This document shows, piece after piece, positions 6,170 through 63,344 of a stretch of 64,000 nucleotides of DNA. The notes under the pieces were generated by a model, which was not told the DNA's origin, did not search any database, and was given only the letters and a program-made list of their open reading frames with translations. The stretch is from Buxus sempervirens (lineage: Eukaryota; Streptophyta; Magnoliopsida; Buxales; Buxaceae): positions 21,829,866-21,893,865 of the forward strand of contig OX387185.1 of NCBI GenBank assembly GCA_947561395.2, in the 5' to 3' direction. Position numbers and translations under genes: made by a program. Within the stretch, counting starts at the first letter, position 1. Each line of letters begins with the position of its first letter.

Positions 6170-6288
6170 GAGATATTCGTATCTCACTATGTTGTTGTTC
6201 TATTTTTTCAGATACTCGTGGTGAGGCGATTACTGGGGTAGATCCTGCTGAGGCATATAGGGAGGAAGACTACTATTACCTTCCTTAG
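6170..6288 (+). other. Hairpin, acceptor-like site and short frame in family 1 LTR
   Basis: GAGATA-TTCG-TATCTC (6170-6185) is a perfect 6-bp stem with a TTCG loop. A T-rich tract ends in CAG at 6211; from 6212 (two bases, then codons) a frame of 24 codons to TAG at 6286-6288 reads TRGEAITGVDPAEAY and then REEDYYYLP. It is identical in 54473-54549 and, at 42498-42422 on the minus strand, differs at three positions, two of them silent. In this family the upstream frame before the donor at 4642 has a stop, so a full protein is not seen. Confidence 0.5.
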
Positions 6289-11857: not shown

Positions 11858-11964
11858 TTACAAAAGAAAAACATAAGGCCTATAGTAATCTTCTTCTCTA
11901 TACCCGATGGCCTTTTCCTTTCCTTGATCCCCAGCCCGGTCCTTCACACCGGACGTTGATGGAT
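11858..11964 (-). other. Putative conserved 3' exon/short frame in LTR 11587-14138
   Basis: Follows TTATCTTTCAG on the minus strand. Read with two bases completing a split codon it is open for 34 codons to TAA and contains STSGVKDRAGDQGKEK and GYREEDYYRP. It is the homologue of 3389-3295. The upstream open frame 13870-13564 ends one base into a codon at the donor AGAG/GTAAGC, so splicing would join the two frames without shift. No RNA evidence is available here. Confidence 0.5.
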
Positions 11965-14652: not shown

Positions 14653-14659
14653 GGGAGGA
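14648..14659 (+). other. Polypurine tract of element B
   Basis: TGAGGGGAGGA sits directly before the TG of the 3' LTR (14660), where plus-strand DNA synthesis is primed in LTR retrotransposons. Confidence 0.7.
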
Positions 14660-16972
14660 TGTCATACCCTGAAAATTTTTAGAAACTTTAATTAAATAAA
14701 ATTCAGTATTTTAATGAGGATTTTACTGAAAATTGGTAATGGAATATATAGGTGATCACATTGATGAAAGGGATCAGGAGTATGATGCAAACCCAACAGT
14801 TGGATCATGAAATAATGAGGTAAGAATTAACTTAAGAGTTATTTTTAAATCTGATTGGTTAGTGGTATGGAAGTTGGTAGAAGGGAGATGCATGGGATAA
14901 CAGGGATTAAAATAGGGTTTTATACGACTAATCGTATACCTATACCATACATAGTCCTTGGTGGCTGAAAGAAAAAGAAGAGAAACTGAGAGAGGAGAAG
15001 GAGAAAAACCATGGAGTTTTGCTGATCTTGAAGAGATCTACATTCCAGAAGGAATTGGGTTGCTGAAAAGGAAGAGATTAGAGCCTACAATAAGAAGAAA
15101 GACGAGGAAGAAGGAGACTTTGAACGATCAGAGGTAGGTAGCACACCTTTTTAGACGTTAAAGAGTTTTATGGATGTTTTGATCGTCTAGCATATTTTGA
15201 TGGTTTATATCTGAATAGTGTTGATTTTGATGTATATAATGTAATATATTGCATAGAAAACCAGTTTCGGATTAGGAATTAGCCACTGTATGTCGAGCGC
15301 TTGACATGATCGCTTGAGCGGTCCTGTCTAGTGACTCGCCTGTAAATCTTAGTTAAATAGTCGCCCAACTGATTGCCTAAGTGCCCACATTGAGCACCGG
15401 TCACTATTTTCTAATTAATTTAATGTGTGGACGTCCAACCAAATCGCCTAAGCACCTGGGTTGAGCGACCAACACAGATTCAGATTTTTTTTCTTCTGAA
15501 TTTTAAGAAAAATTTCAATATAGAATTATTTTTAATGATGTTAAGTATTTGAACCAACAAATATTAAGTGTTTACAACTGTTTCCATTGATATTTTGCTT
15601 TAAAAACAATTTAATGAGTAATTTAGGTTTGTTTGTTAAAAAGTTGTCTTATTTTGGATATACAATGATTTTTGGGCTATTTCACAATTTGATTTGAATT
15701 GATTGAAGAATTCTTACTCCGTATAATATATTTCAAAGTATCTTGACTACCGAAACTTTATTAGAAGAACTTCACACCATATTTATTATGTTGAGTTATT
15801 TTGGATAGAGTATTAGCTTTGGAAAACCCTATATGCCACTAGGCACTATTATTAAAATACATTTATTTGTGAGTGAGTTGTTATTAATGGTGGGCATAGC
15901 TGCATATGGATCCATAGGGTTAAGCTAGAGAGTGAAGCCGTTTTTCTTTGGTCGGATACTCCGAGTTTGTGTTCGCGTTTTCTTTGCAAGTTAGTTTGCA
16001 TTGGGGGGTTTTCATGTCAATAGAGTCTCATTTCAGATACTGGCTGCTGGTGAGTACCCTGTATGTCTGGATTAGCGGCCATCCCCGTGTTCAGATTTCA
16101 GGAGCTGCATGCTTGGTTGGTACATGCCAAATTCCGTATTTCAGATATCGTTGCTGGTACGTGAGTTTTGTGCACAATAAGCTAATGTCTAGGCCTCATA
16201 TCTCAGATTTCATTCGGGTTTGAGGATTATTACGTGCTTCACTCATAAGTTGCATGGTGGCGTAATGGATGGAGAGTTTCTTGTTAAAGTTATGTTTGTC
16301 TTCATGAGTCCTACAATGATATATGATGGTTTAGTTTTGGTTTTGCTTATTATACCTTTGTGTTGAAAATCATGTTGATGAGAAAGATTATATCTGCTGA
16401 GATGCTTTTATTTGATTACTGTTTTATTTGTCGAGATTGTATCCTGTTTTCTTCTTTACTTTATCGAGCATGAAAGAATGATTATTTTTTATGTATAAAC
16501 TGTTTATTCATGAATAGTGTTACCTACTGGGATATTCGTATCTCATTCGTGTTTTGTTTTGATTTGTTTTTCAGCTGATCCGCGTGAAGGAGACTTGGGG
16601 TTTGGTTCTTAGGGCGAGTTTGCTGATTTTCTCCCAGAGGATTATTACCATCCTGAGTAGTTATTGTTTTGAAGTTGATACAGATGATAAATACCTTTGA
16701 TTTCTTGTTTGTTTATTTTATGGATTGGATGATTATGAGAGTGAGAGTGATAGAACCTATTTACCAGACTTTGATTTATTTTGATGTGATGGTTTGGAGG
16801 ACACTTTTATCCACGCTTGTTGGTTTTTATTGATGATAAACTTTCGCACTCTGATATTAATTGTTGAATGAATTATATTTGATTGTCTGGTAATTAGATG
16901 CTTTGGGCCCAATAGCACTTCGGATTCAAGTTGGGTGCCTGTTTTGCATTGACCCGATTTCGGGGTGTTACA
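14660..16972 (+). mobile_element. 3' LTR of element B
   Basis: A 2313-bp LTR from TGTCATACCCTG to CGGGGTGTTACA. Contains a purine-rich stretch (14965-15125), donor-like AGAG/GTAGGTAGCA at 15133, TCGAGCGCTTGA-type block (15290-15475), GGGATATTCGTATCTC hairpin (16530-16545) and acceptor TTTTTCAG at 16574 with a short frame to 16660. That frame reads REGDLGFGS, then a TAG where the 5' LTR copy has CAG, then GEFADFLPEDYYHPE-stop. Comparison with 7878-8475 shows many C-to-T/G-to-A type differences, so the insertion is old. Confidence 0.9.
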
Positions 16973-35995: not shown

Positions 35996-36084
35996 TCAGA
36001 CAAGATCTGGATAATAGTAATCCTCCGGAGAATACTCAGCTATCTCTCCCTGGAAGTCTAAGAGATCCCCCTCTCGCGTATCAG
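35996..36084 (-). other. Putative conserved 3' exon in family 2 LTR (best copy)
   Basis: After CAG at 36087-36085, two bases complete a codon and 28 codons follow to TGA: DTREGDLLDFQGEIAEYS then PEDYYYPDLV. The sister LTR (50181-50093) differs at four bases, all third-position and silent. The element B LTR (16575-16660) encodes REGDL and PEDYYHPE with different codons: for R-E-G-D-L all five codons differ, and every change is silent. This is what selection on a protein leaves behind. The upstream segment 40796-40517 is open in the phase that would join it at the donor. Confidence 0.6.
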
Positions 36085-36909
36085 CTGAAAAAAATGGAAT
36101 AACAGTAGGGTGAGATATGAATATCTCAGTAGGTAACACATGCATGATTAAACAGTTAATATAAGTAAAGTAACAGTTCATGCACGATTAAGCAACATCG
36201 ACTAATCAGGCTCGCATAATCATTTATACTATTCATGAACACAAAACAGTTTGATAAACAGTTCTAGAAATGAACTTCAGCAAGTTTAATATGAGAATAC
36301 AATAGTCAAATCAGTAACATAGTTCACACATTGTCAGGATGTACTAAGCAGTCACATCCGACCCATATCTCAATCACACGCCTCCCGCATGTATACAATA
36401 ATAATACCAAGTGTTGTGATTTCAGTGTCATTATAGGACTCACAAAGATAGATAAACCTTTTGAGATGATTCTCAACCAATTGCTATACCACCGTGCGAC
36501 TTAGGAGCGATGCTACTAATGATACTCAAGCCCCATGCAGCGCAGCTTAGACAAGAGCCGTAGTCACCGACTTATTGCACACGTACCCATCAGAGTTGGC
36601 ATGTACCACCAGCATGCAGCACCAGAATCAATACATGGAGATGGTCGCTTATCCACATGTACAGGGAATCACCAGCGGCTCACCGGGGTGTCCCTCCAGA
36701 CATAAGACCTTCCCAGACAAACTAACTTGCAAAGGAAGCGCGTCGCATATAGGAGTAACTCAACCCAAATGACATATCCCTCAGCTATCTAGCTACGACT
36801 ATGGATCCATAACCAGCTATGCCCACTAGACTCCAAAATTCCCTAAAGTATCATATTTCTATAAGGGTTGGTGCCTAGCGGCATATAATGGTTATATCTG
36901 TACATTTAC

Positions 36910-39895
36910 TGTAACGCCCCCCGGAACCGGGTTACGTAGTAAAAACCGTAACTCGTTCCCCAAGGGTTACTTTTATACACAGGATCGCTATATCAGAGTA
37001 AGGAAAACATGAAATGGCAATAACATAATCAGAGTCAACTAAAATTTTCCCCAACTCACCTAAACCAAGCATAAACCCGCCTGTATCGTCCTCTCTGAGA
37101 TCTGAAAACAAAACAAAACAGAAGGAATGAGATACGACTATCTCAGCAAGTAGCAATGCATGCTCAAACATATTTAATTTAATTTCTAAAACATGCACGA
37201 TTAAAATATACTCAACGACTAACCACAAATAAATCGATTAATCCGACTAATCCGGAAAAACAATATCAAATCACATAATAAGGTGGGACTCGTGAAATTT
37301 GACCACTTTGTAAAGTTAAGTTCTAGCTCCAAACAGTTCCAGTCCGAGAACCTCTGCCAAATCTGATACCTCTGAAAACTGATTCCAATATATCGTCTCT
37401 TGGTGGAAATCACAAGACCTCACCCTCCTCAAGGGTGGAAACAGATATCAATCCAGTCTGAGAACCACTGTCGTAACTGCTACCAATAATAGACCTCACC
37501 CCCTCATGGGGTGGAAACGAAGCTGCTGCAGCACATCCCTCATGGAAGGCCTCTTTATATGGAGGAAACGCGTAAAATAAATCCCTCTTAGTTCGCAGCA
37601 CTTCCCTCATGGAAGGCCTCTCCGCATAAAGGAAACGCATGAAGGAAGCTAGACTTTAACCAAACAAAATAGACCGACTTCACTTACTAGCTAGATTATG
37701 GATCCATAACATGCTATGCCCTAAATAGCATACATAAAGACCAACAAGTACGACAAAAGCTTCGTTTCAAACCAAGAAGTATTTCGATGTGCAACACAAC
37801 ATATAACCGGGTGCGAATAAACATAATATGGTCACTCAGGACCAAAGCCTACTCCCTCATGGAGTTTTCGAAAGTACTTTCTCAAGCAACAATTTTTAAA
37901 GAATAAAATACATGCAGTTCTGATACCAACTTTCAATTAAGAATGCAGTAATTAAATAAATCAATCGGAAAACACTAAGAGTCTTCAAATCTGTCTCAGC
38001 AACATAAGTCTGATAAAATTCCATAAAATAGATATCATTTCATTTCAGGAATTTCAGAGGTTATACACATTACTAAGAAAAAATTAAACCAGCATTGGGA
38101 TTCCGATTAAACACAAAACAGTTCCTAGCTGAATATCTCATCATTTTTACTTTCATTGACAACCCAAGACCATAACCAGTGATTTATTAAAACAGCATAG
38201 ACAATTTAATATTCAAGTCATGACAGAAATTCAGCTAAGACAATGAGATTAGGATCAGCTCCAGGATTTTCCGAATAACCAATTCTTTTAGTGCATAAAT
38301 TCAGATTTGCTAAGTTGCTAGTAATTGATTCCCAACATAAATTAAACCTTACTTTTTATTATCATATTGATCCCCATAGTTTCCCAACAGCTCTTGAAAA
38401 TTTCAAATGAAATGATAAAATGAGTTTAACACCAGAAATAGACTCAAAGAATCTCAACTATATGCTGCAGAAAATTTAGAACCTGCTTTTAGTATTTTTC
38501 CTCTCAACAATTCTCTTAGTTCATGGTGTTAATTGAGCTTCCACAAGATTCTAATAGTCTTAGATCCTAAATAGAACTTAAATGAACCTATTTGAACAGG
38601 TTTTAGAGGCTAAAGTTTTATTTATAAACAAATAATAAATCAGCCACACATAGTATTAGAATTTGGATCTGGTGCTGACCCGGAGAGGTTGGCCCCAAGT
38701 CAAAATCTCTTAGCACCAGGTATAAATGGGAGTCTGGTGCTAACCTGGAGAGGTTGGCCCCAGATTAGTTTCCCTAGCGCCAAATAACTTTTGAGTCTGG
38801 TGCTAACCTCTTTGAGGCTAGCGCCAGATACTAAAGGTTGGCACCAGGTTAGCTCTCTTACAAAATAATCGCACTTCCTTCCTTAACTCAAGCACTTTAA
38901 CACTACAACCAATCTCCACCTCTCCAAACCCTTTTAACCTCTTAACAATTGTCCGAAAACACAATTAAACCACCTCTAAAATACTATAACTAAGCTCAAA
39001 CTGAATCATAAAATATACGTACTTTTCATGAACAGAAAACATCATTCGTTCAAATCAATTCTACCTTGTTCAAATAATAGAAGAACAATACAAAAACATG
39101 CTATTTTAAAGATGCTACTTGCCTTAGGTTTGCTGAAAACCAACTCCACAGAGAACACTGCTTATCAGAATTTTTCAACATCTAATGAACCACCGATGAA
39201 CAGAAATTTCTGCAGAAAATTTCTAAATCTTAGATCCTAATTCCTCCTTCTTATTTCTACTAACAAACAGATAGAAATGAACCCAAAATAACCTATTTCG
39301 AACATGGATTAGACTTACCCGATTAAAAGCTGGACTTTGAACGACTTGTGCTCCAACTGAACACAACTCTTCTGACGAACAAGAATCTCTCTTCACTCCC
39401 AATCCTCTAGATCAAAACTTAGTTTCAATGAATGGTTTAACCCTCCTCAGATCTAACCCCTGCCGTTTCTGTTTTCTCCCAACAGTGAACCGAAATCTGA
39501 TCTAAACGCTCGAAGACAAAACGGTTTTATGTTACAAAACTCTTGATTTCCTTTTTGATCCTGTGTAGTGCTCCACCACCATAACACCTACACCAACAGC
39601 CCATCGATCCTTGGTAAATTACTCTATTCATCATCATATATAATTTATTATTATTCATTCATTTCCATCTCCTTAAACTTTTCTCCTAATATAATATTAT
39701 TTCATATTGAAGTTAATATATATAACACCACTTACTATTAGCTTCTATAATTAATAATTTCAGAAATCCCCAAAATGCCTTTGCATGGCTTCCACCCTAA
39801 CACGAGATCGCCCCCACTTTATTTTATTTTTAATAATATTAGCAAATTCCTTATATTAGGCTAACCAACAATCCGGGGTCTTACATTTACTTCAA
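36910..39895 (-). mobile_element. Solo LTR, family 3, TSD TTTAC
   Basis: A 2986-bp minus-strand LTR (plus-strand ends TGTAACGCCCCCC and CGGGGTCTTACA), flanked by TTTAC at 36905-36909 and 39896-39900, inside LTR 35627-40943. Carries hairpin GAGATA-GTCG-TATCTC near 37140, acceptor TTTTCAG at 37104-37102 followed by LREDDTGGF, a CCTCACCCCCTCATGGGGTGG-type hairpin array cut into units (37415-37635), a GGTTGGC/CTGGTGCTAACC repeat block (38670-38850) and a GC-type donor-like AAG/GCAAGTAGCA at 39123. Confidence 0.95.
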
Positions 39896-42172: not shown

Positions 42173-44228
42173 TGTAACGCCCCGGATCCGTGTTGTTCAA
42201 TAAAGATATAACACGTCTCACAGAGGTTAGGCAAGGATCGATAATTAAATATGATCACTGGATAATCATCTAACAATAACCTGTCAGAGTGCACAATTTG
42301 ATTCATCCAAGAAATGTAACGTTTTGACTTAACTAGAAACATATGGTTCAACCCCCAAGTAGACTTTAATACACCTCAAATATTCAAAGTACTCAAATTC
42401 GAAACAAGGTAACCTACAAGTCTAAGGAAGGTAATAGTAATCTTCCTCCCTATAAGCCTCAGCAGGATCTACCCCAGTAGTCGCCTCACCACGAGTATCT
42501 GAAAATCACAACAAAACAACATAGTGAGATACGAATATCTCAGCGAGTAGCACATGCATGCAGAAATAGTTAATCCCAGTTCAAAGCTATGCATCGATAA
42601 ACGTTCCGTACGATTAAACAACTCATATCAGAATCAAGTTCAAACCAAAACCCATCTCATCGGTCAAATCACATCTCAGTTAAGTACAATAACACATCGA
42701 TCGGTCAATGTCATGACTATCGTTTAGTTGATAAATTAAACATGCCAAGTAGACACTCCACACCTCCATGTACACAGTTCCGGCCTACTCAGGGTTTCGT
42801 CATCCAATGCAGGCCTACTCCGCGGGTTTCTGCATTGACAACCAGGCCTACTCAGGGTTTCTGGCTGCTCTACACCGGTTGTGGCAACACACAAGGCCAT
42901 GCAATTCCAACAACCAACAAATAACATTACATTACTAAGCTTAGACTCTGGATTTAGGACAAGCTAGACCAAAACAGTAAAACATCGTATAATCTCAATT
43001 TCACATTTAAAGTAAAAACCATTCATTCCACATCATGTGTATCTCATCATAGTTCATCACCTGTCCCTCTGGACCAAACAGTATCTCAATACTTTCAGTA
43101 TTTCTCATTTCCACAAACCATGCCATTTGAATACAAAACACAGTTATTTATAACAAGACAATACATTTCAGCATTTCCCAAAACAAATGAAAACCAGAAG
43201 TCAATAATTTCTCAATTAGAACAGTGTATAACTTCGAGGAGAAAACTACTAAGAACTCCTAGGGTTTTGGTATCCAGCGCAATCATATATAAAATAACCT
43301 AACTCATCCTTAGAAGCCTTTAAGAAGTTGCCACTAGAATTCTCCTAGTAAGTAAATAAGAAATGTAGGTTCCAAGGTTACCAACAAATGATTTGTGAAG
43401 TGATATAAACCCCAAGACATCAAAATCCCCCCTTGGTTCAGTCGAAAATCAAGTTCGGCAAGTATAATTGGGTATGCACTCACTTCCTGAAGTGAGCGCC
43501 AGGTGAGCGCCAGTCGGTGGATAGAAAAATAGGTGGAAAAGGACCTTGCGCTCACTCGACGCTAAGTGAGCGCGAGCTGAGCGGGAGAAAGGCGCGGGCT
43601 AGGCGCGAGAAAAGTGCACCGATTTCAAGTAGGCGCGAGCTGAGCGCCAGGTAGGCGCGAGCTCGGCGCCAGATCGAATTTCCTAGGCGCCTACTTCCCG
43701 AAGTGGGCGCAAGTGGGCGCCAAGTGGGCGGATACCCACTGCGAATTTCGAGATCTCCAACTCTGGCTGGTTTCTTTAGGTCTGTTATTGCTCCATTTCA
43801 CTCGTAATGCTCCCAGAAGACTTCCCAACCCATTTTGGATTTAATCTAAACAACTTTAATTTCACATTAATTTTTCAATCTTCGTTCGTAACTCGCGGTA
43901 TTCCAAAAAAACACAGAACTCACAATACGATCACAATACGACCATGAATTTCAAAATACATTTCGAATAAACTAAAACCTCGGTTCTAAATCAGTGCTAC
44001 TCACATGTATGCGCTTAATCCCAGAACAACAGTTTCTTCCCCAATCGGCCGATCGCGAATTTCCTGCTGCCCGCGCGAATGAAAATATAGCCGAACGAAT
44101 CCTCTCGACCAGAGAGAAATAACCCACTGAACTTCAACTCCAAAATCCTTCTGTAAGCACCTCATTTTTGTGCTCCCAGAAAAACCAAAAATACAAACCC
44201 TGGACAGAAAGTCAAACCCTAAGGGGTG

Positions 44229-45695: not shown

Positions 45696-48426
45696 TGTAA
45701 GACCCCAGTTTTGAGTAGAAAAAAAAATAATAATAATAAAATAATAAAAAATATATATATATATATAATAGTAGATAAAATAAAATATATGCGAAAGTAT
45801 GAACACATGGATTTATGGGCAGGCTTAATCAAAATTTATTTATTGTTGGAGATTTGTGATCATTAGTTGTCAAAGAGAATAAGCTTAAGTGGATGCGGGA
45901 AAATGTAGGGTTTTCAGTGGGCGAGCATGCACAGGATCAAGGCTTTTAAAAAGTTGTCGTGCGGCCATACGTATGCGAGCGTGTGGAAGGTATATATATA
46001 TACTAAAGGGGAAATTAGGGTTTTGGGTTTTCGAATGCTCGCATCGTATTTTTGTAACTGAGCGATTTCGGCTCGAGTGGCGACTAGGGTTTCTGCTCGT
46101 GAAGAACAAGAATCGCAAGGGCTAAAAGAAGGGTTTTGGAGCTGAAGTTCAGTGGGTTATTTCTCTCTGCTCGAGAAGATTTGTTTCGGTAGATTTTTCA
46201 TTCGCGTGCGTGGCCGGAGAAGTGATCGGCCGAGGTTTTACCATTCGGGAATAAGCGCATTCATGTGAGTAGCACTGATTTACAACTGGGTTTTGTATTT
46301 GAAGTTTTCGTGAGCTTATTCTGATGCATGGTTTATATATTAAGTGATAGTATGAGTTTTCTGGTTTTTCTGGTTTTCGGGAAATGACATGAACAGAGTC
46401 TCCGACTGAATTTTATCTTTAAAAATAAAAGTGTTTAGATTAATTCCAAATATGGTTGGGAAGTCTTCTGGGAGTATTAGGAGTGTATTGGAGCAATTAC
46501 AGACCTAAACCAACCGGCCAGACTTGTAGATCTTGGAATAACAGAGAAACAAAATCACAGGGGGTATCCGCCCACCTCGCGCTCACCGGCGCTCACCTCA
46601 GAGGTAGGCGCCCCGTTAAACACGACCCACCGCCGAGCTCGCGCCCGGCTGGCGCTCAGCTCGCGCTCAGCAGAAAACTATGCGCTCATCTCGCGAGAAT
46701 CTCGCGCCCACCTCACGCCCATCTCGCGCTCGGCTCACGCTCACCTAGCGTCGAGTGAGCGGTAAGTCGTTTTTACCCCATTTCTTCACCGCCGACCGGC
46801 GCTCACCTCGCGCCCACCTCAGGAAGTGAGCGGCAGACCTATTTTGCTTACTGAATTGGAGATTTGATTTAACTAAGGGTATTTGGGTTACTTGAGGAGT
46901 AAACCACTTCACTATTCACTTGTTTGGGAATCCTGGGAATCTATTTTGCCTAGGAAACTATTAGAGGAAAATTTAGTGAACTTCTTAAAAGCTTTCAAGT
47001 TGAGTTTAGGTTATTTATGAATGTTATGCCAGATACCAAACCACCAAGAGTTACTAGTTACATTTCCTCTGTTTTATACACTGTTTTGATTGAGGAGTTA
47101 TTCTATTCTGGTTTCACTGGTTTGGAAACTTTAAATGTATTGTAAAGATTTCCTTGGTATGAATGAATTGAGTTTTGCTTTCATATGACTTGTGTTACGG
47201 AAATGAGAAAAAACTGAATGTACTTGAGGTACTGCTTGGTCCAGAGGGACAGGTGATGAATTGTGATGAGTTTTACATGATGTGGAATGAATGGTTTTTC
47301 TTTGATATTGGTATTGAGATTATACGATGTTTTACTGTTTTGGTCTAGCTTGTCCTGGATCCAGATGTTTAAGCTTAGTAATGTGATGTTATTGTTGGTT
47401 GTTGGAATTGCATGGCCTTGTGTGTTGCCACGACCGGTGTAGAGCAGCCAGAAACCCTGAGTAGGCCTGGTTGTCAAATGCAGAAACCCAGGGAGTAGGC
47501 CTGCATTGGATGACGAAACCCTGAGTAGGCCGTACCCTGAGTAGGCCGGAACTGTGTACATGGAGGTGTGGAGTGTCTACTTGGCATGTTTAATTTATCA
47601 ACTGAACAATAGTCATGACATTGACCAATGTTGGTATTTGATTTTGCTTGACGTGATATGTTTTATTCGCTGGTTTGTTGGTATTTATGGTTCATGGAAT
47701 ATTGTTTACCGATTATTGTGTATTGTACCTCCCGCCGGTGTAGAGCAGCCAGGAACCCTGAGTAGGCCTGGTTGTCAATGCAGAAACCTGGGGAGTAGGC
47801 CTGCATTGGATGACGCAGTCATTTCAATATCCAAAACCCTGAGTAGGCCGGATATACATTTGGAGGCGTGGGCATGGTTATGTGAAGACTTTGTGTTATA
47901 TGATATTGGTATATCTGGAATTATATCTTGAGATACGAAATTATGGTTAATTGCTATGTTGTTGTCAGTTAATCTTTATTTTATTGAATTCTTCGGGATT
48001 GGAAACGGATTGTTATTGTTTGACTTACCTGATGGTTTTCCGCACTGATATGAATTGGATTATTGAAGTTTAGTCGGATTATTCGGAATATGCGTATTAT
48101 CATCATTGTACATGGTTATAATCGTGGCATGTTTTAGAACCGAAATAAATGTATTTGTGCATGCATGTGCTGCTCACTGGGATATTCATATCTCATTCCG
48201 TATTGTTTTGTTTTGTTTTCAGCTGCTCCTGGAGAGGACGATACTTGCGGGTAGTTACTTGGTCATGTGAGTTTATTTTCGTTTGGGATTATTTTAGCGC
48301 ACTCTGTTATATAGTTATTGTTGTATTCATGTTTTCCTTCACTCTGATATTGCGATCCTGTGTTTTATAATAACCTCTGGAGGCAAGTTACGGGTTTTTC
48401 ATGTGACTCGGATCCGGGGCGTTACA
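45696..48426 (+). mobile_element. Solo LTR, family 1 variant, TSD CGCGA
   Basis: A 2731-bp plus-strand LTR, TGTAAGACCCCAG to GATCCGGGGCGTTACA, flanked by CGCGA at 45691-45695 and 48427-48431. Longer than other family 1 copies because the GAAACCCTGAGTAGGCC segment occurs twice (47450-47550 and 47740-47860). Hairpin GGGATA-TTCA-TATCTC near 48179 and acceptor TTTTCAG at 48222, followed by a short, probably truncated frame (PGEDDTCG-stop). Confidence 0.95.
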
Positions 48427-49719: not shown

Positions 49720-52077
49720 TGTAACGCCCCGAACCCGGGTCAGTGCAAACCGGCACCCGACCCGAACCCGGTTCGCTACTGTAACAACCCGAATTTAGTT
49801 CAACAACCAAATCCGAGGTGTTACTGGCCCATATCAATTACAACATCAATAACATACCAGACCAAAGAAAGTAAATCCAATCCATATATTAAACTATCAG
49901 AGTGCGGAAACAAGTATGTGCGGAAGTGTAGATCAAAATCCTCAAACAAGCATAAAGCTTGACCATCAGTCAGTAATATCAAAGTCTGGTAGAATGAACT
50001 GGTTACTAACTCTCTCTCTTGTCTCTCTAATACATCAAATCCAATAAATGATAATAACCAATAAAATGCTAAGTCTATCACATAAATCCACCTCAGACAA
50101 GGTCTGGATAATAATAATCCTCCGGCGAATACTCGGCTATCTCTCCCTGGAAGTCTAAGAGATCCCCCTCTCGCGTATCAGCTGAAAAATGAAATAGAAG
50201 TAGGGTGAGATACGAATATCCCAGTAGGTAACACATGCATGATTAAACAGTTAATATAAGCAAAGTAGCATTTCATGCACGATTAAGCAATATCGACAAA
50301 TCAGGCTCGCATAATCATTTATACCATTCGTGAACACAAAACAGTTTGATAACAATTCTAGAAATGATTTTCAGCAAGTTTTAATATAAGAACTCAATAG
50401 CCAAATCAATAGCATAATCCAAGTATTGCCAGGATGTACTAAGCAGTCACATCCAACCAATATCCCAATCACATGCATCCCGCACGTGCACAATAGTAAT
50501 CATATCAAGTGTTATGTTTTCAGTGTCATTGTAGGACTCAAAAAGTTAGATAAACCTTTTGAGATGATTCTCAACCAATTGCTATACCACCGTGCGACTT
50601 AGGAGCGATGCTACTAATGATACTCAAGCCCCATGCAGCGCAGCTTAGACAAGAGCCGTAGTCACCGACTTATTGCACACGTACCCATCAGAGTTGGCAT
50701 GTACCACCAGCATGCAGCACCAGAATCAATACATGGAGATGGTCGCTTATCCACATGTACAGGGAATCACCAGCGGCTCACCGGGGTGTCCCTCCAGACA
50801 TAGGACCTTCCCAGACAAACTAACTTGCAAAGGAAGCGCGTCGCATATAAGAGTAACTCAACCCAAATGACATATCCCTCAGCTATCTAGCTACGACTAT
50901 GGATCCATAACCAGCTATGCCCACTAGACTCCAAAATTCCCTAAAGTATCATATTTCTATAAGGGTTGGTGCCTAGCGGCATATAATGGTTATATCTGTA
51001 CATTCACTTCATTATTCAGTCATGCGGATTATGAACTCTCTTTATAATGTCTTATAATTTATAATGCCATTTAAAAATGTTTAGATAGTCAAATGGTAGT
51101 TAGGCTTTTCCAAAATCACATTTCTCGTTTACCTTCAAAACTAGGCAACTAATGTCCTAAATATCTCCCTAATTTGTTTTTCTGTAAAACAGGGATTTAG
51201 GTAGTTTATTTTGGTCTTAAAACACCTTAATTAATCATTAAAATTGTCTAAAAATAGTTTAGAATTGAATTAGGTTCGAAATTATGAAAAATTGGAAATT
51301 CTGCTGAGAGCGCCTGGGATCGCTCAGGATCGCTCCGGGCGGTCATCAGTCGGCGGTAGTGCAATTTCGAGCGCCCACGGTCCGTCGTCCCGCGGTCCAC
51401 GGCGTCCTCGAATCCTTAACCAGCGCCTAAGATCGCCGATGAGCGCCTCGCACAGTCGAGGTCGGCGGTCTCACCAAATCGAGCAGAAACAGTTCTAAAT
51501 CGTGATTTTTCTCGTCTAAACTCATTCTAATGTATTTCTAACATGCTTAGCTAACTAAATACAACATTACATATCATAGAAACATGCGTTTGCGATTAAA
51601 CAGAGATAAATCCAAATTTAAACAAAAACGGTGTCACCTACCTCTATACGCGCGTTCCTCTTCTTCTCCTCTGATCAACAACCCTCAAATCTCTCTTCAG
51701 TTGCAAAGCAATGCTCTGAGCAAGATTACTTGGTCTTCCTCCCTCCTTCTCTTTCTTCTCTTCTCGGTCGTTCAACTCTCGTCGCTTGCGGCTCTTCAAT
51801 ACAAGCGAGAATACACGTATAAGAATCAGGTTAATTCTTTATACATATTTATAGCCCCTGATCCTATGCATCTCCCATGCAACTCTTCTATACACCTTGC
51901 CCAATCAAAATACATACCTCGATATCTCACGATCGGACGGTCAGATCTGCGTCTAATTCTGGATCTCCGCTAAGTTGATCATCCCCTACAATATTAAAAT
52001 GTTTCTATCAATCATAACTCTGGGTAATATTATTTACTAATTTAATTTATTATTTAAGGAAAATTCGGGGTTTTACA
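49720..52077 (-). mobile_element. Solo LTR, family 2, TSD ACCCA
   Basis: A 2358-bp minus-strand LTR (plus-strand ends TGTAACGCCCCGAACCC and CGGGGTTTTACA), flanked by ACCCA at 49715-49719 and 52078-52082. Sister of 35627-40943. TATAAATA at 51853-51846, donor-like AGAG/GTAGGTGAC at 51642, GCG block 51480-51305, hairpin near 50215, acceptor TTTTTCAG at 50184-50182. Its donor-side frame is broken by small indels, while the short 3' frame is intact. Confidence 0.95.
50093..50181 (-). other. Putative conserved 3' exon in family 2 LTR (second copy)
   Basis: Same 89-nt segment as 36084-35996. Four differences, in Ala, Ser, Tyr and Asp codons, all silent. Encodes DTREGDLLDFQGEIAEYS and PEDYYYPDLV. 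Confidence 0.55.
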
Positions 52078-52318: not shown

Positions 52319-54794
52319 TGTAAGACCCTGAATTTTGTGAGTATTTATTTATTTATTTAGTTATTTATTCTGAGGTATAAACTGTGTTTATCAGGTTATT
52401 TTGTGGTTTGAGGGCTTAGCCCATACTCATATGTACAGGCGTTATATAGCCATTTTTCCGAAAAATCGTAGTATTATCATTGGTATTATTAAGGTGTAGT
52501 TATGTAATTTTAACGCGAATAGATGCTGAACAGGTAGTGTCTTCCGTAGGCGAGCATGCATAGGATCAAGAAATGGGAGAGTATTCGAGCGAGCATGTAA
52601 CAAGTAAGTGGACGAAAATGGAAAGTAGGGTTCGGGTTTATGAGAATGTGCTTAGCATAATTTCGGCAATATTTTCGTTAACTCTGGACATAAGGAGAAT
52701 TGGCGATTTCGGCTGGAGGGCGACTAGGGCTTCCATTCGTGAAGAACCATCTATCGCAAGTGCTGGAAGAAGGAGTTCGGAGCTGAATTTACTTGGGTTA
52801 TTTTCCCTCTGCTCGAGAAGTTTAGTTCGATAGGTTTTTCATTCGCACGCGTGGCCGAGAAGTGATCGGCCGGGGGTTTTCTCGTTCGGGAATAAGCACA
52901 GGTGAGTAGCACTGTTTTATAACTGGGCTTTGTGTTTTGGGTTTTCTCGAGCTTATTTTGATGCATGGTTTGAATATTTAGTGATAGTATGATGTTTTCT
53001 GTTTTTCTGGTTTTTCGGAAAGTTGCATGAACAGAGTCTCCGGATTGAAGTTTTAATTGAAAAATGAAAGTGTTTAGATTAATTTCAAATATGGTTGGGA
53101 AGTCTTCTGGGAGTATTAGGAGTGTACTGGAGTAGTTACAGACCTTCACAAACCGGCCAGTCATGTAGATCTCAAAATAACAGAGAAATGAAAACTACAG
53201 GGGGTATCCGCTCACCTCGCGCTCACCGGCGTTCACCTCGGAGGTAGGCGCCCTGTTAAAAATGACCTACCGCCGATCTCGCGCCCACCTCGCGCTCATC
53301 TCGCGCGAAGTAGAAAACAAGGCGCCCATCTCGCGCGAATCTCGCGCCCACCTCACGCCCATCTCACGCCCATCTCGCGCTCACCTAGTGTCGGGTGAGC
53401 GGCAGGTCGATTTTGCCCGTTTTCTTCACCGCCGACCGGCGCTCACCTCGCGCCCACCTCGATAGGTGAGCAGCAGACCTATTTTGCTTACCGAAATGGA
53501 ATTTCTGATTTGACCAAGAGTATTTGCACTTCTTAGGGGTTAAACCACTTCACTATTCACTTGGTTAGGAACCTGGGAAACCATTTTGCCTATGAAATTA
53601 ATAGAGGAAAATTTTGTGAACATCTTATGAGTTTCAAGTTGGGTTTAGGTTACTTATGAGTATTGTGCCGGACACCGAACTAGTAAGAGTTACCAGTCAC
53701 TTTTCCTTATTCTATACACTGCTTTGATTGAGAAGTTCTTGTATTTCTGGTTTCACTTGTTGGAAACTTTATACGTATTGAATGGTTTTCTTTGGTATGA
53801 ATGGATTGAGTTTTACTTTCATATGACTTATGTTATGGAAATGAGAAAGTACCGAATGTACTTGAGGCACTGCTTGGTCCAGAGGGACAGGTGATGAATT
53901 GTGATGAGTAATTACATGATGTAGAAATGAATCGTTTGTTTTGATATTGAAATCGAGATTATACGATGTTTACTGTTTTGGTCTAGCTTGTCCTGGATCC
54001 AGATGTTTAAGCTTAGTAATGTGATGTTATTGTTGGTTGTTGGAATTGCATGGCCTTGTGTGTTGCCACGACCGGTGTAGAGCAGCCAGAAACCCTGAGT
54101 AGGCCTGGTTGTCAATGCAGAAACCCGGGGAGTAGGCCTGCATTGGATGACGAAACCCTGAGTAGGCCGTCATTTCAGAGTATCTGAAACCCTGAGTAGG
54201 CCGGAACTGTGTACATGGAGGTGTGGAGTGTCTACTTGGCATGTTTAATTTATCAACCAAACGATAGTCATGACATTGACCAATCGATGTGTTATTGTAC
54301 TTAACTGAGATGTGATTTGTTTGATTTGAACTTGGTAAATTGATGTTGGCTGTTTAAACGTATTGTAGTGTTGTCGATGCATAGTTTTAAAATGTGATTC
54401 AACTATTTCTGCATGCATGTGCTACTCGCTGAGATATTCGTATCTCACTATGTTGTTGTTCTATTTTTTCAGATACTCGTGGTGAGGCGATTACTGGGGT
54501 AGATCCTGCTGAGGCATATAGGGAGGAAGACTACTATTACCTTCCTTAGACTTGTAGGTTATCTGTTCCGAATTTGAGAACTTGAATTAATTGAGATGTA
54601 TTAAAGTAATTGGGGATGAACCATATGATTTCAGTTCAGTTTAAATGTTACAATTTTGCATAAATGGAAATGTGCACTCTGTTAGGTTATAGATGTCTGA
54701 TTATCCAGCGATCATAAATTGATTAACGATCCTTGCCTAACCTCCGTGAGACGTGTTATATCTTTAATGAACAACACGGATCCGGGGCGTTACA
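52319..54794 (+). mobile_element. Solo LTR, family 1, TSD TTAGT
   Basis: A 2476-bp LTR from TGTAAGACCC to CCGGGGCGTTACA, flanked by TTAGT at 52314-52318 and 54795-54799. Near-identical to 4059-6533 with only scattered changes, so both inserted relatively recently or from the same source. Donor-like ACAG/GTGAGTAGC at 52901, GC block 53205-53475, four tandem units 54090-54200, hairpin near 54430, acceptor at 54472, short frame to 54549. Confidence 0.96.
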
Positions 54795-55096: not shown

Positions 55097-56188
55097 AATC
55101 AATCAGATTACTTTTGTCTATTGCATGCTATTTGAAGTTTAAACTGTTTCAAATGGATGTTAAGAGTGCATTCTTGAATGGATATCTGAATGAAGAGATT
55201 TATGTAGAGCAACCTAAAGGATTTGAGGATACAAATCATCCTAAACATGTTTATAAACTGAACAAGGCCTTGTATGGACTCAAACAAGCTCCTAGAGCTT
55301 GGTATGAGAGACTCACCTCTTTCTTACTTGAATCTGGTTTTATGAGAGGAAATGTGGATAAAACTCTCTTTATTCAAAGAGAGTCCAAACATATTTTGAT
55401 TGCTCAAATCTATGTTGATGACATAGTGTTTGGATCTACTTCTGAAAATCATGCTCACTCCTTTTGAGACTTAATGAAGAGTGAATTTGAGATGAGTATG
55501 ATGGGTGAACTGAATTTTTTCCTAGGACTTCAGATTTATCAATCTCAACAGGGGATTTTTTTCTCTCAAGCAAAATATGCTAGAAATCTAGTCAAGAGAT
55601 TCAGTTTAATTCATGCAAAACATGCTAGGACTCCTATGAGTACTAGCTTAAAGCTTGGAAAAGATGAATCTGGGAAGGATATAGACCCTACCTTGTACAG
55701 AGGGATGATTGGAAGTCTTCTGTACTTAACAGCAAGTAGACCTGATATAAGTTTTAGTGTTGGAGTTTGTGCAAGATATCAGGCTAATCCTAAAGAATCT
55801 CATCTAAATGCTGTGAAAAGGATAATAAAGTATGTTAATGGAACTGTTGATCTGGGAATTTGGTTCTCCAAAGAAACAAACCCATATCTTACTGGATACA
55901 CTGATGCTGATTGGGCTGGGTGTATGGATGATAGAAAAAGCACCTCTGGTGGTTGCTTTTATATGGGTAATAACCTCATTGCTTGGTTGAGCAAAAAGCA
56001 AAACTCAGTTTCACTGAGTACAGCTGAAGCAGAGTACATTGCTGCAGGAAGCAGTTGTACTCAACTAATTTGGATGAAACAAATGCTATCTGATTATGGT
56101 TTAGATCAGGACCAAATGATTCTCTTCTGTGACAATCAGAGTGCCATAAATATTTCCAAAAATCCTGTTCAACACTCAAGGACTAAAC
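55097..56188 (+). pseudogene. Copia pol, RT and RNase H
   Basis: The RT continues with QMDVKSAFLNG, NKALYGLKQAPRAWYERL and an intact YVDDIVFGS catalytic box. A TGA at 55465 breaks the frame, then EFEMSMMGELNFFLGLQI follows. RNase H shows GYTDADWAG, SLSTAEAEYIA and FCDNQSAI. The sequence stops at HSRTK at 56188, where chromovirus C has inserted; the last RNase H residues and the 3' LTR lie beyond the window. Core RT and RNase H residues are present, but the element as a whole is dead. Confidence 0.92.
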
Positions 56189-58737
56189 TGTCACGCCCTG
56201 AACTTTGGTCATATAAAATAGTATGATCGCAAAGCACTGGAACGTGACTCAGAGATGCCAATAACACTAATTTATAAATAACATAACACAATCCCCAAGA
56301 GGACAGTAATAATACCTAATAGAATCCAAGAAAATAGCTTCTCGAACCCATCAAAACATAAAATCTCAATTATACAAACCCAATTGAAATAGATGAATCC
56401 TTAATAGTACGACATCTAAATCCGAAGATACTAATAATATTAAACTATTAGCCAAAAAACTTCAAGAACTTTCACTTTGGCTTCTTCCAACTCTGGTCCT
56501 GCAACTGACCTGAAATTGTTTATTTCCACAAAGGGTGAGCTCACAGCCCAGTAAGAAGATTTACTTTAATTTATATGAGCTAATAATGTAAACTCTCTAG
56601 TCAATTAAGTTTAAACATAACAAATTTCATTCTATGCATAAAACTGATATAATTAGATTTTGCGTGATACTTCATGATGTTCCACATTATATTCGTTCAA
56701 CCTAACATCACAATAATTCATTTACATGCACAAGCATCAGTGTCAATTAATTAATTATTATTATGAAATACAATTTATGGGGGTCTTTATTCTAATGATT
56801 CTCATGTCAAACCTAACCAGAATTTTGATCAAGTTCTTGGATCCCACTTTAATACAGCAGGGATTAGACTCTCATAAACTCCACGTGTACATCGTGGTTT
56901 TAGGGGCTTCCAACCCATGGGACACAAGCGCCCAACCTTATTTTCCTTAAAATTTAGGGACTCACACCCCCAAGAACACCAACTCATCACTAAGATGGTC
57001 ATCCTTCATGAGTAATCACTAGAATAAAGATATACGGTTACGTTATTTATCAATATGTCAATTCCTTATATACTATTGACCACACAGTATCATGATTAAA
57101 AATTTTGTCGCAATTCTTATGATCTACTATAATCACCCAAGCTTAAAAGAATACCTTTCTTGAACCAAATAAATTGTAACCAGAGATAACAAATAATTAT
57201 TGGTTCGTATAAATGATAACACAACAATTATAGTATAAGCAATTATAGTATAATCTTTACAAGGACAAAATAACTACACTTATAATATGGCCCTGATATG
57301 TAAAATAGTATTGCACTACATAGTCTAATTGACATTAGCATGATTTGGTGAAAAGCAACCACAACCATCCGATTCTCAAGACAACCCTGCAACACTTTTT
57401 CACCCTTTTTGTTTTAATATATATAAAAGGTGTCATTTGCCATTAAAGCAATCTGGCAGCACAAGCAATGTGCACAAGCAAACAAATCACCTAAACAGTA
57501 AAAGGTGAATAGTACTAAAAGTGATTCATGACTTTTGCCATTTAAAAGAAATAAAAAGGTGATTCATCCATGTATTCTGCGATTCTGTCAAAGCCATAAA
57601 AAGGGGTTCATGACCATTGTCATTCAACGAACACGTGAAAATAATAAAATATTGTGGCATGACTTTTGCCATTTAAAAGAAATAAAAAAAGAAGTGATTC
57701 ATCCATGTATTCAACGATTCTGTCAAAGCAATGAAAAGGAGTTAGCATGACCATGAGGCCATGTCATGTTATGAGAGAAAAGTCCAGCCATGTGATGTTA
57801 AAGAAAAGTGAGTAAACCATGGCATGGATGGTCAAGAGAAAAAAAAAACATGGTCAAGAGAAAAGCATGCGTACAGGTCACATGGGTACCTTTTTGTTTG
57901 TTTGTTTAATTGTTTGTTTGTTTGTTTGTTGTTGACTACAACCCAATTCTTCACATATCATCATGGGAAACGAACCAGCTTTATAAAAAAACAATCACAT
58001 GGGTTTCTCTACACTCAACCATCCCTTAAACACATGACACGCTGATATCTAACCCAGAATACAATGTCAGCCATTAAAATAACCCAACAGCATATAAACT
58101 TGTCAACAGTACAATATTAAATAGCAAAAAAATATATAAAGTATCACATACGAAATTAGCTTTATAATAGCAACCCATCATTCATAAAATCCTAAAGAAT
58201 TTCTTCAAACCCTAATAATTTCTTTATCTAAAGAAAATCTTACATGATTAATCATATAAAATAAAGTAAAACCCTTACCTTAAACCAGCCCCAAATCTCT
58301 TAGGGTTTCTCTTAATCCCTCTTTTCTTCTTCTAATCCTCCTACAATAAGCATTGAAGAAATAGATAAATAAAAATAAGAATAAGAAATTTGGGAAGGAG
58401 GTGTAGAGGACTTGAGGAAAGGGACAAGACTTACCACCTACGGATTGTGTGTTTCCTTGAGGAAGAGTAAAAGAAGAAAAAGGAAAAGGTAAGAAGAAGG
58501 TACGGTTTGGTGCTTTAGGGCAAAGGGACAAAAGGTGGGAGAGAGTACGATTTGGATCTTCTCCCCCTTTTGGTTTTCCTCTCTTTTAAAGTAAGGCTTG
58601 ATAATGTGTATGTGCCACTAGGGAGGATCCTACACCAACACCAATTAAAATCCCCAAATCAAATGACCCTTGACCAGTCCAAAGTTGACTAAGGTCAAAG
58701 TCATGTTTATTTTCCTTCTTTTGACCAAGTTGTTACA
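56189..58737 (-). mobile_element. 3' LTR of chromovirus C
   Basis: A 2549-bp LTR; plus-strand ends TGTCACGCCCTGAAC and CAAGTTGTTACA. The first 656 bases match the other LTR (63345-64000) with one difference and no gap. In element orientation: TTTAAAAGAG near 58588, an open frame 58531-58435 up to donor GGTG/GTAAGTC at 58435, hairpin GGGCT-GTG-AGCTC near 56545, acceptor AATTTCAG at 56512-56510 and short frame 56509-56472 (QLQDQSWKKPK-stop). The preceding 5 bases, TAAAC, should recur at the far end. Confidence 0.95.
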
Positions 58738-58752
58738 TTCTACCCACCTTAC
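58738..58752 (-). other. Polypurine tract of chromovirus C
   Basis: On the minus strand TAAGGTGGGTAGAA runs up to the TGTAACA of the 3' LTR, the position of the plus-strand primer. Confidence 0.8.
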
Positions 58753-58772
58753 AGAAATTTCGTCCTCGAAAT

Positions 58773-61700
58773 TTAGAAACATACTTGATCCCAAAATAGA
58801 TGAGGGTATTTCTCCCTAATTTCTGATTCCTGCTCCCATGAAGCTTCTGCCTCAGAATGATTACTCCATTGGACTTTTACCAAGGAAAGAGTTTTCCTTC
58901 TCATTACGTGTTCCTTCCGGTCTAAGATACGAATTGGATATTCTTCATAAGAAACATCATCCCTCAATGGTATAGCTTGCCAATCAATGACTTGTGTGGG
59001 TTCAGGCTCGTACTTCCGAAGCATAGACACGTGGAACACATTATGCACCGAAGACAACTGCGGGGGTAAATCAACTCTATAAGCCACTTTCCCAACTGTT
59101 CCTAAAATTTGAAACGGTCCAATATACCTTGGTGCCAACTTCCCTTTCTTGCCGAATCTGAAGATGCCTCGCATAGGGGAGACTTTTAGAAAAACCAAAT
59201 CCCCAACATTAAATTCCAGCTTCCTTCTACGCCTATCTGCATAGCTTTTCTGTCGGCTTTGAGCAGTTTTCAACCTCTCCTTAATAATTTTAATCTTTTC
59301 TGTAGTCTCTTCTACAAATTGTGGACCCAACAGCAACTTCTCTCCTACATCGGTCCAACAAATAGGAGATCTGCACGGTCTCCCATAGAGTGCCTCAAAT
59401 GGAGCCATTCCGATACTTGCTTGGTAACTATTATTATATGCAAACTCAATTAATGCAAGATGACTTTCCCAACTACCCTTAAAATCAAGTACACATGCCC
59501 TAAGCATATCCTCAAGAATCTGATTGACCCTTTCGGTTTGCCCATCGGTCTGAGGGTGGAATGCGGTGCTGAAATCAAGTCTTGTACCAAATGCTTTTTG
59601 AAAACCTTTCCAAAACCGAGATGTAAATCGAGAATCCCGATCAGAAACTATTGAGACAGGTACTCCATGCAACCTCACAATTTGCTCAATATATAGCCGA
59701 ACCAAATCATCCATCGAAATAGAATATTGGATAGCAATAAAATGAGCTGATTTGGTTAGCCTATCCACAATAACCCAAATTGTATCATGGTTATTGCGGG
59801 TCCTTGGCAATCCTGCAACAAAATCCATAGAGATGCTTTCCCACTTCCATTCACCAATGGGGAGAGGCTGCAATGGTCCTGCAGGTTTCTGGTGCTCTGC
59901 CTTTACTTGCTTACATGTAGAACACCGAGAAACATACTTAGCAATCTCATTCTTCATATTTTTCCACCAATACAGCTTACGGAGATCCCTATACATCTTT
60001 GTCCCACCTGGGTGTACAGAGTATCGAGTCTTATGAGCTTCATTCATGATCTCTTCTTTCAATCCACTTTCCTCGGGAATACACAATCTGTCCCTGAATC
60101 TAATACTACCATCCAAATGGTATCTGAAATCTTCCTTTCCGTTTGCTACTAGATACTGGAGTGACTTGTCATGCTTCTGCTCTTCCACAATCCTTTCGAT
60201 AAGATTTGGCTTCACGACCAAATTAGAGAAATACACCCCTGCTAATCGTGAGATTTGTTTGGTTCCCAAATCTGAAAATCCTTCTACCAAATTCCTCTCT
60301 TGAGCAATCAAAAAGAATAGTGTGCTTCTAGGCTTTCTGCTCAAAGCATCGGCTACTACATTCGCCTTCCCCGGATGGTATTGCAATGTGAAATCATAGT
60401 CTTTAACTAGCTCCATCCACCGCCTTTGACGCATATTAAGTTCTTTCTGTGAGAAAATATATTTTAAGCTCTTGTGATCGGAAAATAGCTCAAATCTCTC
60501 ACCATATAAGTAGTGCCTCCATAACTTAAGGGCAAACACTACTGCAGCCAATTCCAAATCATGCGTCGGATAATTTACCTCATGTGGCTTCAGTTGCCGA
60601 GAAGCGTATGCCACAACCTTCCCTTCTTGCATTAAGACACACCCTAGTCCTTGCAAAGAAGCATCTGTGAAAATCTGAAACTGCTTCCCACTGATTGGCA
60701 AAGTTAGAACAGGTGCTGATGTCAATCTGTTCTTTAACTCTGCGAAGGCCTCCTCGCACTCCTTAGTCCACAAGAACTTAACATTCTTTCTAGTTAGTTT
60801 GGTTAAAGGAGCTGCTACACGAGAAAATCCTTCGATGAATCGTCTATAGTAACTTGCTAAGCCCAAAAAGCTTCTCACTTCTGTAGCATTCTTTGGTTGT
60901 TCCCAATTCAAGACTGCTTCCACTTTAGATGGATCTACAGAGATTCCATCTTTTGACACCACGTGCCCCAAAAATTTGACTTCATTCTTCCAAAAGTCAC
61001 ATTTCTCAAGTTTAGCATACAATTGATGTTCCTTTAATGTTTGAAGCACTATCCCCAAATGTTTTTCATGCTGCTCTCTAGATCTTGAGTACACCAGAAT
61101 ATCATCTACAAAAATTACCACAAACTGATCGATGTAGGGCCGAAACACTCGATGCATTAAGTCCATAAATGCCGCCGGGGCATTTGTCAAACCAAAAGGC
61201 ATTACAACAAATTCAAAAAGCCCATATCTGGTCCTAAATGCAGTCTTGGGTATATCTTCCTCCCTGATTCTTAATTGGTGGTATCCTGACCTCAAATCGA
61301 TCTTAGAAAAATATACTGCCCCTTTCAGCTGGTCAAACAAATCATCGATTCTAGGCAATGGGTACTTGTTCTTCACTGTAACCCGATTTAATTGCCTATA
61401 GTCCACACACAGTCTAAGGGAACCATCCCTTTTCTTGACGAATAACACTGGTGCTCCCCAAGGAGAAAAACTAGGTCTGACAAACCCAAGCTTCTTCAAA
61501 TCCTCCAACTGCTTATTCAATTCTCTAAGTTCTGCTGGTGCCATTCGATATGTTGCCAAGGATATGGGGGATGTCCCTGGCATCAAATCAATGCAGAAAT
61601 CTACTTCCCTTCTTGGAGGTAGACCGGGTATCTCTTGAAATACCACTGGAAAATCACAAACCACCAGTATCTTCTCTACACTAGCACCCTCCTTAGCTTC

Positions 61701-63149: not shown

Positions 63150-63331
63150 CTACATAGGAGGAATCAAGAAACAAACAAACATGAGACTTAAACATTATAT
63201 CGTATTTTATACACATTCAACCTTGTAATATGTAATACATACATAGGTACACAACAACAAACATATATATATAACACATCATCCTTCTCCTTATATCTAT
63301 ACATTATTACCCTAGAATCCTAACCCTTAGC
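63150..63331 (-). other. Leader between primer site and gag of chromovirus C
   Basis: About 180 bp of AT-rich leader. No gene. Confidence 0.7.
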
Positions 63332-63343
63332 TTTGATACCAAT
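63332..63343 (-). other. Primer-binding site of chromovirus C
   Basis: Minus strand TTGGTATCAAAGC, one base off the common TGGTATCAGAGC, directly inside the LTR at 63345. Initiator tRNA-Met is the likely primer. Confidence 0.85.
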
Positions 63344-63344
63344 C

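Follow-up and report, generated by a model that had tools for sequence, protein, structure and literature searches.

Why would a short reading frame inside a long terminal repeat (LTR) hold on to its amino acids? The question arises in a 64,000-nucleotide stretch of the Buxus sempervirens genome (assembly GCA_947561395.2, contig OX387185.1, positions 21,829,866 to 21,893,865 of the forward strand; hereafter the window), which has a G+C content of 39% and holds many LTR retrotransposons of the chromovirus kind. In six LTR families (F1, F2, B, F3, A and L11), a CAG is followed by a short frame in identical phase, two bases past the CAG, that reaches its stop within the LTR. Comparisons between copies support a constraint on the encoded peptide, and we propose that the frame is the coding part of a spliced terminal exon whose partner may be the end of pol.

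The frames span 9-34 codons across the six families, with 55 in F3a. Both F2 copies read TTTCAG/CT (a slash marks a putative splice junction), then 28 codons, DTREGDLLDFQGEIAEYSPEDYYYPDLV, then TGA. The first codon of the tail takes one upstream base; if this is G, the base at most donors, it becomes Ala, Asp or Glu. Tails (for example EYSPEDYYYPDLV and GYREEDFYRPT) are acidic in most families, and those of F3 are without EDYY. The usual order within the LTR is a GCATGCATG-like stretch, a hairpin, about 25 nt of pyrimidine-rich sequence, TTTCAG, the frame and the stop. The candidate exons in the window, with the parts that adjoin them, are the following.

35996..36084, minus strand: F2a terminal coding exon, tail ...PEDYYYPDLV-stop, phase 1, read directly
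36085..36130, minus strand: F2a splice module, with hairpin TGAGATA-TTCA-TATCTCA, pyrimidine tract and CAG acceptor (top 0.40% of AGs)
50093..50181, minus strand: F2b terminal coding exon, read directly
16575..16660, plus strand: B2 terminal exon in the 3' LTR of the B element, interrupted by one internal stop, read directly
14660..16972, plus strand: B2 LTR, 2313 bp, adjoining the pol end
8142..8227, plus strand: B1 terminal exon in a truncated LTR, interrupted by one internal stop, read directly
6212..6288, plus strand: F1a terminal coding exon, ...REEDYYYLP-stop, read directly
54473..54549, plus strand: F1b terminal exon, read directly
42422..42498, minus strand: F1c terminal exon, with three differences from F1a in an LTR about 75% identical to it, by alignment
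3295..3389, minus strand: LTR A terminal exon, REEDFYQPT-stop; LTR A is the 5' LTR of an element whose gag starts at 2547 (minus)
11858..11964, minus strand: L11 terminal exon (solo LTR, also LTR 11587), reading REEDYYRPYVFLL-stop
37075..37101, minus strand: F3a exon past the CAG (only its start marked), open for 55 codons, no EDYY
48223..48254, plus strand: F3b terminal exon, APGEDDTCG-stop

Direct reading bears out the original prediction, made from this sequence alone, of a short frame in the same phase after each CAG, and adds F3 to it (37101, minus; 48223, plus). The F1 frame at 6212 (plus) indeed ends in REEDYYYLP and a stop. The endings given for LTR A and LTR 11587 are also right, but their strand had been omitted and is minus for both (3389-3295 and 11964-11858). 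The frame had been placed 85-95% along the LTR; it actually lies at about 80-87% (2156/2483 in F1, 1915/2313 in B2 and about 1880/2340 in F2, with the F2 LTR end taken at 35627). Both B copies in the window are dead, with one internal stop each at different places (TAG in B2, TGA in B1). Two more LTR modules lie in a neighbouring 47.5-kb stretch, and each has an open phase-1 frame (TYGEPIIAGSENLVM-stop and TLGELVTCG-stop); no pol end was found there by the pattern used. In the species' own 676-Mb assembly, a first look gave 2036 candidates for the F2a-type exon, of which 40 were scored.

The case for a protein is carried by the way in which copies differ. Five pairs of copies hold 60 differences, distributed 13/11/36 over the codon positions (binomial P=2e-5), and when the same substitutions were relocated to random places, as many identical residues were retained in 0 of 20,000 trials. 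The excess at position 3 is carried by A-L11 (P=0.0016), F2b-B2 (P=0.0004, counted after one gap column and the column of the B2 stop had been dropped) and F2a-F2b (P=0.0095); F1a-F1c (three differences, P=0.21) and F3a-F3b (three, P=0.60) are without codon-position bias. A sixth pair, F2a-B1 (P=0.0225), was kept out of the pool because it is not independent. The pairs F2-B and F2a-F2b had already been pointed out in the original prediction, and what it said of them is correct: for REGDL all five codons differ between F2 and B at 16575 (plus), every change silent, and F2a and F2b differ at four sites, all silent (GCT/GCC, TCT/TCG, TAC/TAT, GAT/GAC). Equal conservation in all three frames, named beforehand as an outcome that would speak against a protein, was not seen: in the informative pairs the two alternative frames are much less conserved (BLOSUM scores of 85 versus 0 and -15 for F2b-B2, and of 111 versus 70 and 72 for A-L11). 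The dead pair B1/B2 has its excess at codon position 1, not 3, as expected for decay. A control scan of the same LTR alignments, in 129 windows of 84 nt, placed its two best windows for position bias on the F2 exon; the best P was 0.012 of 129, so no single window survives correction.

An independent test used 40 copies of the family A exon, the window's own among them, a set that the original prediction did not have. In 34 of the 40 the frame is open to the normal stop. Variants present in at least three copies comprise 14 silent and 15 replacing changes (48% silent versus 24% expected, P=0.004, with transitions weighted twofold by assumption in the neutral expectation), and singletons comprise 10 silent and 36 replacing ones (22% silent, P=0.86), as expected without selection; neither class includes variants found in just two copies. 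The two classes differ (Fisher P=0.023). By codon position, shared variants number 6/10/13 in the exon, 10/11/11 upstream and 29/35/30 downstream. If shared variants represent active lineages and singletons the decay of dead copies, this contrast is as purifying selection on a protein predicts. The exon also has few gaps (one run versus 61 upstream and 80 downstream), partly because of the choice of hits. Altogether, the claim of a protein-level constraint inside these LTRs is supported by the pair differences and by the family A copies, and the 15 shared replacing variants indicate that this constraint is moderate.

Could the nucleotides rather than the peptide be the target? The purine-rich stretch would then be an exonic splicing enhancer, or another RNA or DNA signal beside a conserved 3' splice site, and the peptide a by-product. 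GAGGAGGAT/GAAGAAGAT runs do lie close to the acceptor, module and exon are nearly identical at the DNA level in F1a and F1c, and the two pairs lacking codon bias, the replacing variants of family A and a stop in F1 described below would all fit. Against it stand the third-position excess in A-L11, F2-B and F2a-F2b and a silent excess confined to the shared variants of family A; in addition, the phase is equal in six families, and TAY TAY and GAR GAY vary at their silent places. We regard it as unlikely, though to be taken seriously.

If the frame codes for protein, where does it begin? A simple plant splice score, with untrained matrices, was applied to all AGs of the window, and the CAG of each of the 12 copies (the six families and the relative F2c) falls in the top 0.04-0.79%. 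Among the AGs of its own LTR it ranks 1/149 in F1a, 2/114 in F1c, 1/63 in F2b, 1/147 in B2 and 1/64 in A. It is weaker in the intact element TK at the end of the window (top 9.9%, rank 15/124, with a better AG 11 nt on). By this score, the CAG has the appearance of a strong 3' splice site. The frame does not cross it in all copies, because the tracts before it differ in length by non-multiples of three. The start codon, which the original prediction could not name, would be missing because the CAG resembles a 3' splice site: what follows it is probably the last part of a coding sequence joined by splicing.

The hairpin before the acceptor (for example TGAGATA-TTCG-TATCTCA) may hold the branch point and tune splicing in F1, F2, F3, TK and L007 and, by eye, in L001 and L003. 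L001 to L008 are plant-like chromovirus DNA, evidently contaminants, from assemblies with bacterial titles (Geminicoccus, Solirubrobacter, Streptomyces, Mycobacterium and others). Since the length of the hairpin does not significantly exceed that of shuffles in any of 15 copies (P 0.12-0.90), the case for it comes from placement and from pairing between families. In 9 of the 15 copies the longest stem stops 25-27 nt short of the AG, and between families its letters vary yet stay paired: TGAGATA/TATCTCA in F1, TGAGAT/ATCTCA in F2c, TGGGCT/AGCTCA in TK and TAAGCTAT/ATAGCTTA in L007, with GAGCAA/TTGCTC in L001, GAGT/ACTC in L003 and GGGATA/TATCTC in B2 by eye. A, L11 and B1 have no good stem, and in A and L11 the hairpin is unrecognisable. 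Rfam gave no match at the gathering threshold; scans of viral contigs gave no match to the module, with 17 stretches without a relative. One IMG/VR viral contig (L009), probably a chimera and not used, has about 270 bases of plant chromovirus integrase at its start, joined to phage-like genes.

We propose, with a probability of about 0.5, that the LTR carries a spliced terminal coding exon whose partner is pol. The 3'-terminal exon would usually be preceded by hairpin, pyrimidine tract and CAG acceptor and would encode the short tail up to its stop; having no start codon, the tail would be joined by splicing, in phase 1, to an upstream coding exon. That exon would be the end of pol, leaving at a donor G/GTAAA that lies just past the chromodomain of the integrase, about 40 bases short of the 3' LTR. 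Apart from pol, the likely partner, no coding sequence comes to its end near the tail. An intron of this extent would contain the pol stop, the polypurine tract and about 80% of the 3' LTR; with it removed, the integrase would gain a C-terminal tail, in F2 ...YPNLFPEPQ-ADTREGDLLDFQGEIAEYSPEDYYYPDLV. Unspliced RNA would retain the polypurine tract and the complete repeat, which are needed as genomic RNA. By analogy with other chromovirus integrase C-termini, the tail might act in target choice or in binding a host factor. That the LTR holds a spliced protein-coding terminal exon at all, whether joined to pol or to either of two other partners weighed below, we consider probable.

The donor of the B element is the clearest one:

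14619, plus strand: B pol-end donor CAAG/GTAAATTTC after ...KKKYPHLFPELQ, phase 1, 41 bases before the LTR, score 9.4

Here pol ends in ...NWELESEMKKKYPHLFPELQ, followed by G/GT AAA TTT (CAAG/GTAAAT), the best of 38 GTs in 14060-14660 and in the top 0.51% of GTs of the window. Among 39 fetched F2 copies, four are adjacent to pol, and all four have the donor at an identical place and phase, scoring 9.4 with CAAG in L033 and L039, 9.2 with CGAG in L056 and 5.6 with CAAT in L043; tail and acceptor follow 1.9 kb downstream in the same 3' LTR, with CAA instead of CAG in L039. The one pol-adjacent copy among 28 upstream stretches of family A reads ...MRKKYPILFGESQ G/GT AAA (CAAG/GTAAAA; score 7.7, phase 1). 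Thus in B, F2 and A the constrained frame, an acceptor-like site before it and a donor-like site in matching phase, as in a U2-type intron, are all observed; the tail lies outside the frame that leaves pol and begins 1.9 kb further on. Splicing between the two sites, the tailed protein and its function are inferred from this arrangement. In eight distinct elements, from the window and the plant contaminants, pol-end donors are stronger than chance (combined P=9e-5): four of the eight are in the top 2.2% of GTs and one at 5.8%, and three have no usable GT. The contaminant donors are GAG/GTAAGT in L004 (score 11.4, phase 0), TAG/GTAAAT in L005 (7.6, phase 1) and one in L006 (6.2, phase 0); none was found in L001 (L002 is nearly identical to it), L003 or L007. 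A Gly stands at the donor place in part of the public polyproteins; two Fagus gene models quit the frame right after that Gly and six JGI proteins read on, all being machine predictions.

Several observations weigh against a junction with pol. The donors of L004 and L006 are in phase 0. F1 has kept the tail frame, yet its pol-end donor is immediately preceded by an in-frame TGA in all 20 junctions fetched of the 43 found; the frame, read in one copy, is ...KKKYPELFVPS-stop-G/GT AAA (...KKKYPELFVPS-stop-GKFRGRN). Either F1 no longer uses the tail or its partner is another exon, for example gag with its weak phase-1 donors. TK has its pol-end donor, CAA/GTATGT at 58784, in phase 0, with a weak LTR acceptor and no EDYY in the LTR exon. 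None of the 120 polyproteins listed of 7932 has such a tail. Tail searches in 5.8 billion proteins gave nothing at E<=10 from 99 and 308 candidates, a weak search because exact 5-residue words were required. Finally, no intron-less copy of F2 with pol joined to the tail was seen among 40 scored of 2019 candidates.

A partner in gag, for example at the gag/protease boundary, would be indifferent to the F1 stop; it would give a Gag-only isoform with the tail, comparable to the short Gag that copia elements produce by splicing. A phase-1 G/GTAC is present at both gag/protease boundaries examined in the window (TK amino acid 351; A at 1137, minus), and splicing to a short Gag is described for EVADE, BARE-1 and sunflower elements in the portions available of PMC7730604 and PMC12786077. 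However, these donors are weak (6.4 and top 5% in A, 7.2 in TK), the residues there are conserved as protein anyway, and TK has the donor yet no EDYY tail. We find a gag partner improbable.

A further spliced alternative is that the LTR is itself a small two-exon gene resembling Revolver, the tail being the second exon of a protein begun in an LTR exon 1. Donors do recur near the LTR start, GT in F1, F2, B, A and L11, and GC in F3:

4643, plus strand: F1a LTR exon-1 donor CAG/GTGAGTAGCACTG, top 0.09% of GTs
15134, plus strand: B2 LTR exon-1 donor GAG/GTAGGTAGCACACC, top 0.33% of GTs
51642..51800, minus strand: F2b first exon (5' end approximate, not mapped), a non-coding leader ending GAG/GTAGGTGACAC
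7212, minus strand: LTR A exon-1 donor GAG/GTAAGCAACACC; the F1a insertion divides LTR A
13563, minus strand: L11 exon-1 donor GAG/GTAAGCAACACC
39122, minus strand: F3a GC donor AAG/GCAAGTAGCATC, where other families have GT

F1b also has CAG/GTGAGTAGCACTG, and F1c and F1d have CAT/GTGAGT (top 4.7%). The layout exon-intron-exon thus appears to be like that of Revolver, which is described, as far as the portions available of PMC2851119 and PMC3203089 go, as a proven spliced three-exon gene of the Triticeae: a unit of 2.9-3.0 kb with a TATA near its start, a variable first exon, a conserved last exon of about 293 bp, spliced cDNAs and a partial homology of about 60% to LARD LTRs. Revolver shares this unit layout with the LTRs here and differs in being a class II-like gene of 139 amino acids, with no link to pol described in those portions. 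We rejected a coding first exon that starts with an ATG and reads on into the tail: 270 nt of A and of L11 contain no ATG, and their similarity is no more protein-like than chance (P=0.52); F2a and F2b differ by a 1-nt indel just before the donor; and in F1c and F1d a stop precedes the junction by three full codons. The LTR exon 1 looks like a leader, and we hold the two-exon gene to be quite improbable. Both gag starts examined are preceded by a possible 3' splice site (2547-2600, minus, TTTCAG/TTGATATGG, top 2.8% of AGs; 63149-63175, minus, TATGTAG/ATGG, top 12%), which would fit a possible spliced leader from LTR exon 1 to gag.

Chance, with short open frames picked by eye, could appeal to the mere 60 differences in the discovery pairs and to a control scan in which no 84-nt window survives correction; it is disfavoured by the pattern of those differences, by the place of the two best windows and already by the variant test in family A, and has very little to recommend it. 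Translation of unspliced RNA, from nearby ATGs (GCATGCATG) or a non-AUG start, would suit F2a, which is open from such an ATG through the CAG, but we rejected local ATGs and give the idea hardly any weight, because the tract between differs in length so that F2a and F2b require different ATGs, and because a TGA in the hairpin closes the F1a frame.

The type of element was read from the domains of TK, the B, F2 and A elements being seen in parts only.

56187..64000, minus strand: TK, an intact chromovirus whose 5' LTR runs past the edge of the window; LTR layout as in the six families, weak acceptor
58773-63149, minus strand: TK gag-pol open reading frame, 1458 amino acids, one frame

Gag, protease, reverse transcriptase, RNase H and integrase lie in this single frame, as in plant chromoviruses. 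Matches above the Pfam cut-offs are gag, RVP_2, RVT_1, RNase H and Integrase_H2C2; rve is below (25.2 versus 32.6), as is the chromodomain match at the C-terminal end (PF00385, residues 1407-1451, E=1.2e-4, 22.4 bits, cut-off 25.1). We provisionally call the lineage Tekay, to judge by the LTR ends and primer site. The primer sites, TGGTATCAAAGC after the TK 5' LTR and TGGTATCAGAACC after LTR A, are complementary to tRNA-Met, an assignment based in part on PMC3605345.

Two further observations concern the surroundings of the F2a and F1a copies. A copia-like element (33341-35869 and 41336-41950) is seemingly interrupted by the F2a LTR, which itself holds the solo F3a LTR (36911-39885). In the F1a LTR, a block of about 350 bp at about 5690-6040 contains AAACCCTGAGTAGGCC repeats, and there the likeness between F1a and F1c is far above that in the rest of the LTR; this was noticed on inspection of the alignment, and the F1d LTR has a matching part.

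Published systems offer kin for the proposed exon, as far as the portions available of the papers tell. Centromeric chromoviruses of CRM group A have polyproteins that continue into the 3' LTR (PMC3059260), in what is described as a single reading frame, whereas the coding part found here is situated 80-87% of the way through the LTR, where only splicing could reach it. Ogre, EVADE and BARE-1 are likewise plant LTR retrotransposons that make distinct mRNAs by splicing (PMC6317226, PMC12786077, PMC7730604), with an intron between gag-prot and the reverse transcriptase in Ogre and a short Gag in EVADE and BARE-1; no coding exon in the LTR is described for them in those portions. Cer1 of C. elegans is also an LTR retrotransposon with a protein made from spliced mRNA, differing in its protein (RNA export) and its nematode host (PMC12786077). 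The literature searched, whose reach left out most subscription papers, showed no chromovirus LTR reported to contain a spliced coding exon. The arrangement seems to be related to the CRM run-on, the Ogre and EVADE introns and Revolver, and what would be new is a spliced coding exon in a chromovirus LTR.

What would it mean for these elements and their host? Tentatively, a plant chromovirus lineage may keep the final integrase exon hidden in its LTR, so that the tail appears only in spliced mRNA and the message for the tailed integrase is separated from the packageable genome. Annotation treats LTRs as non-coding and masks them; if they hold a selected coding exon, the integrase C-termini of some chromoviruses are misannotated, and introns occur in a group of elements generally said to lack them. 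By the first look, about 2000 candidate copies of one such exon would then spread strong acceptors, each with a short frame and a stop, through the genome. If the proposal is true, every solo LTR would be a ready-made coding terminal exon, open to capture by host genes.
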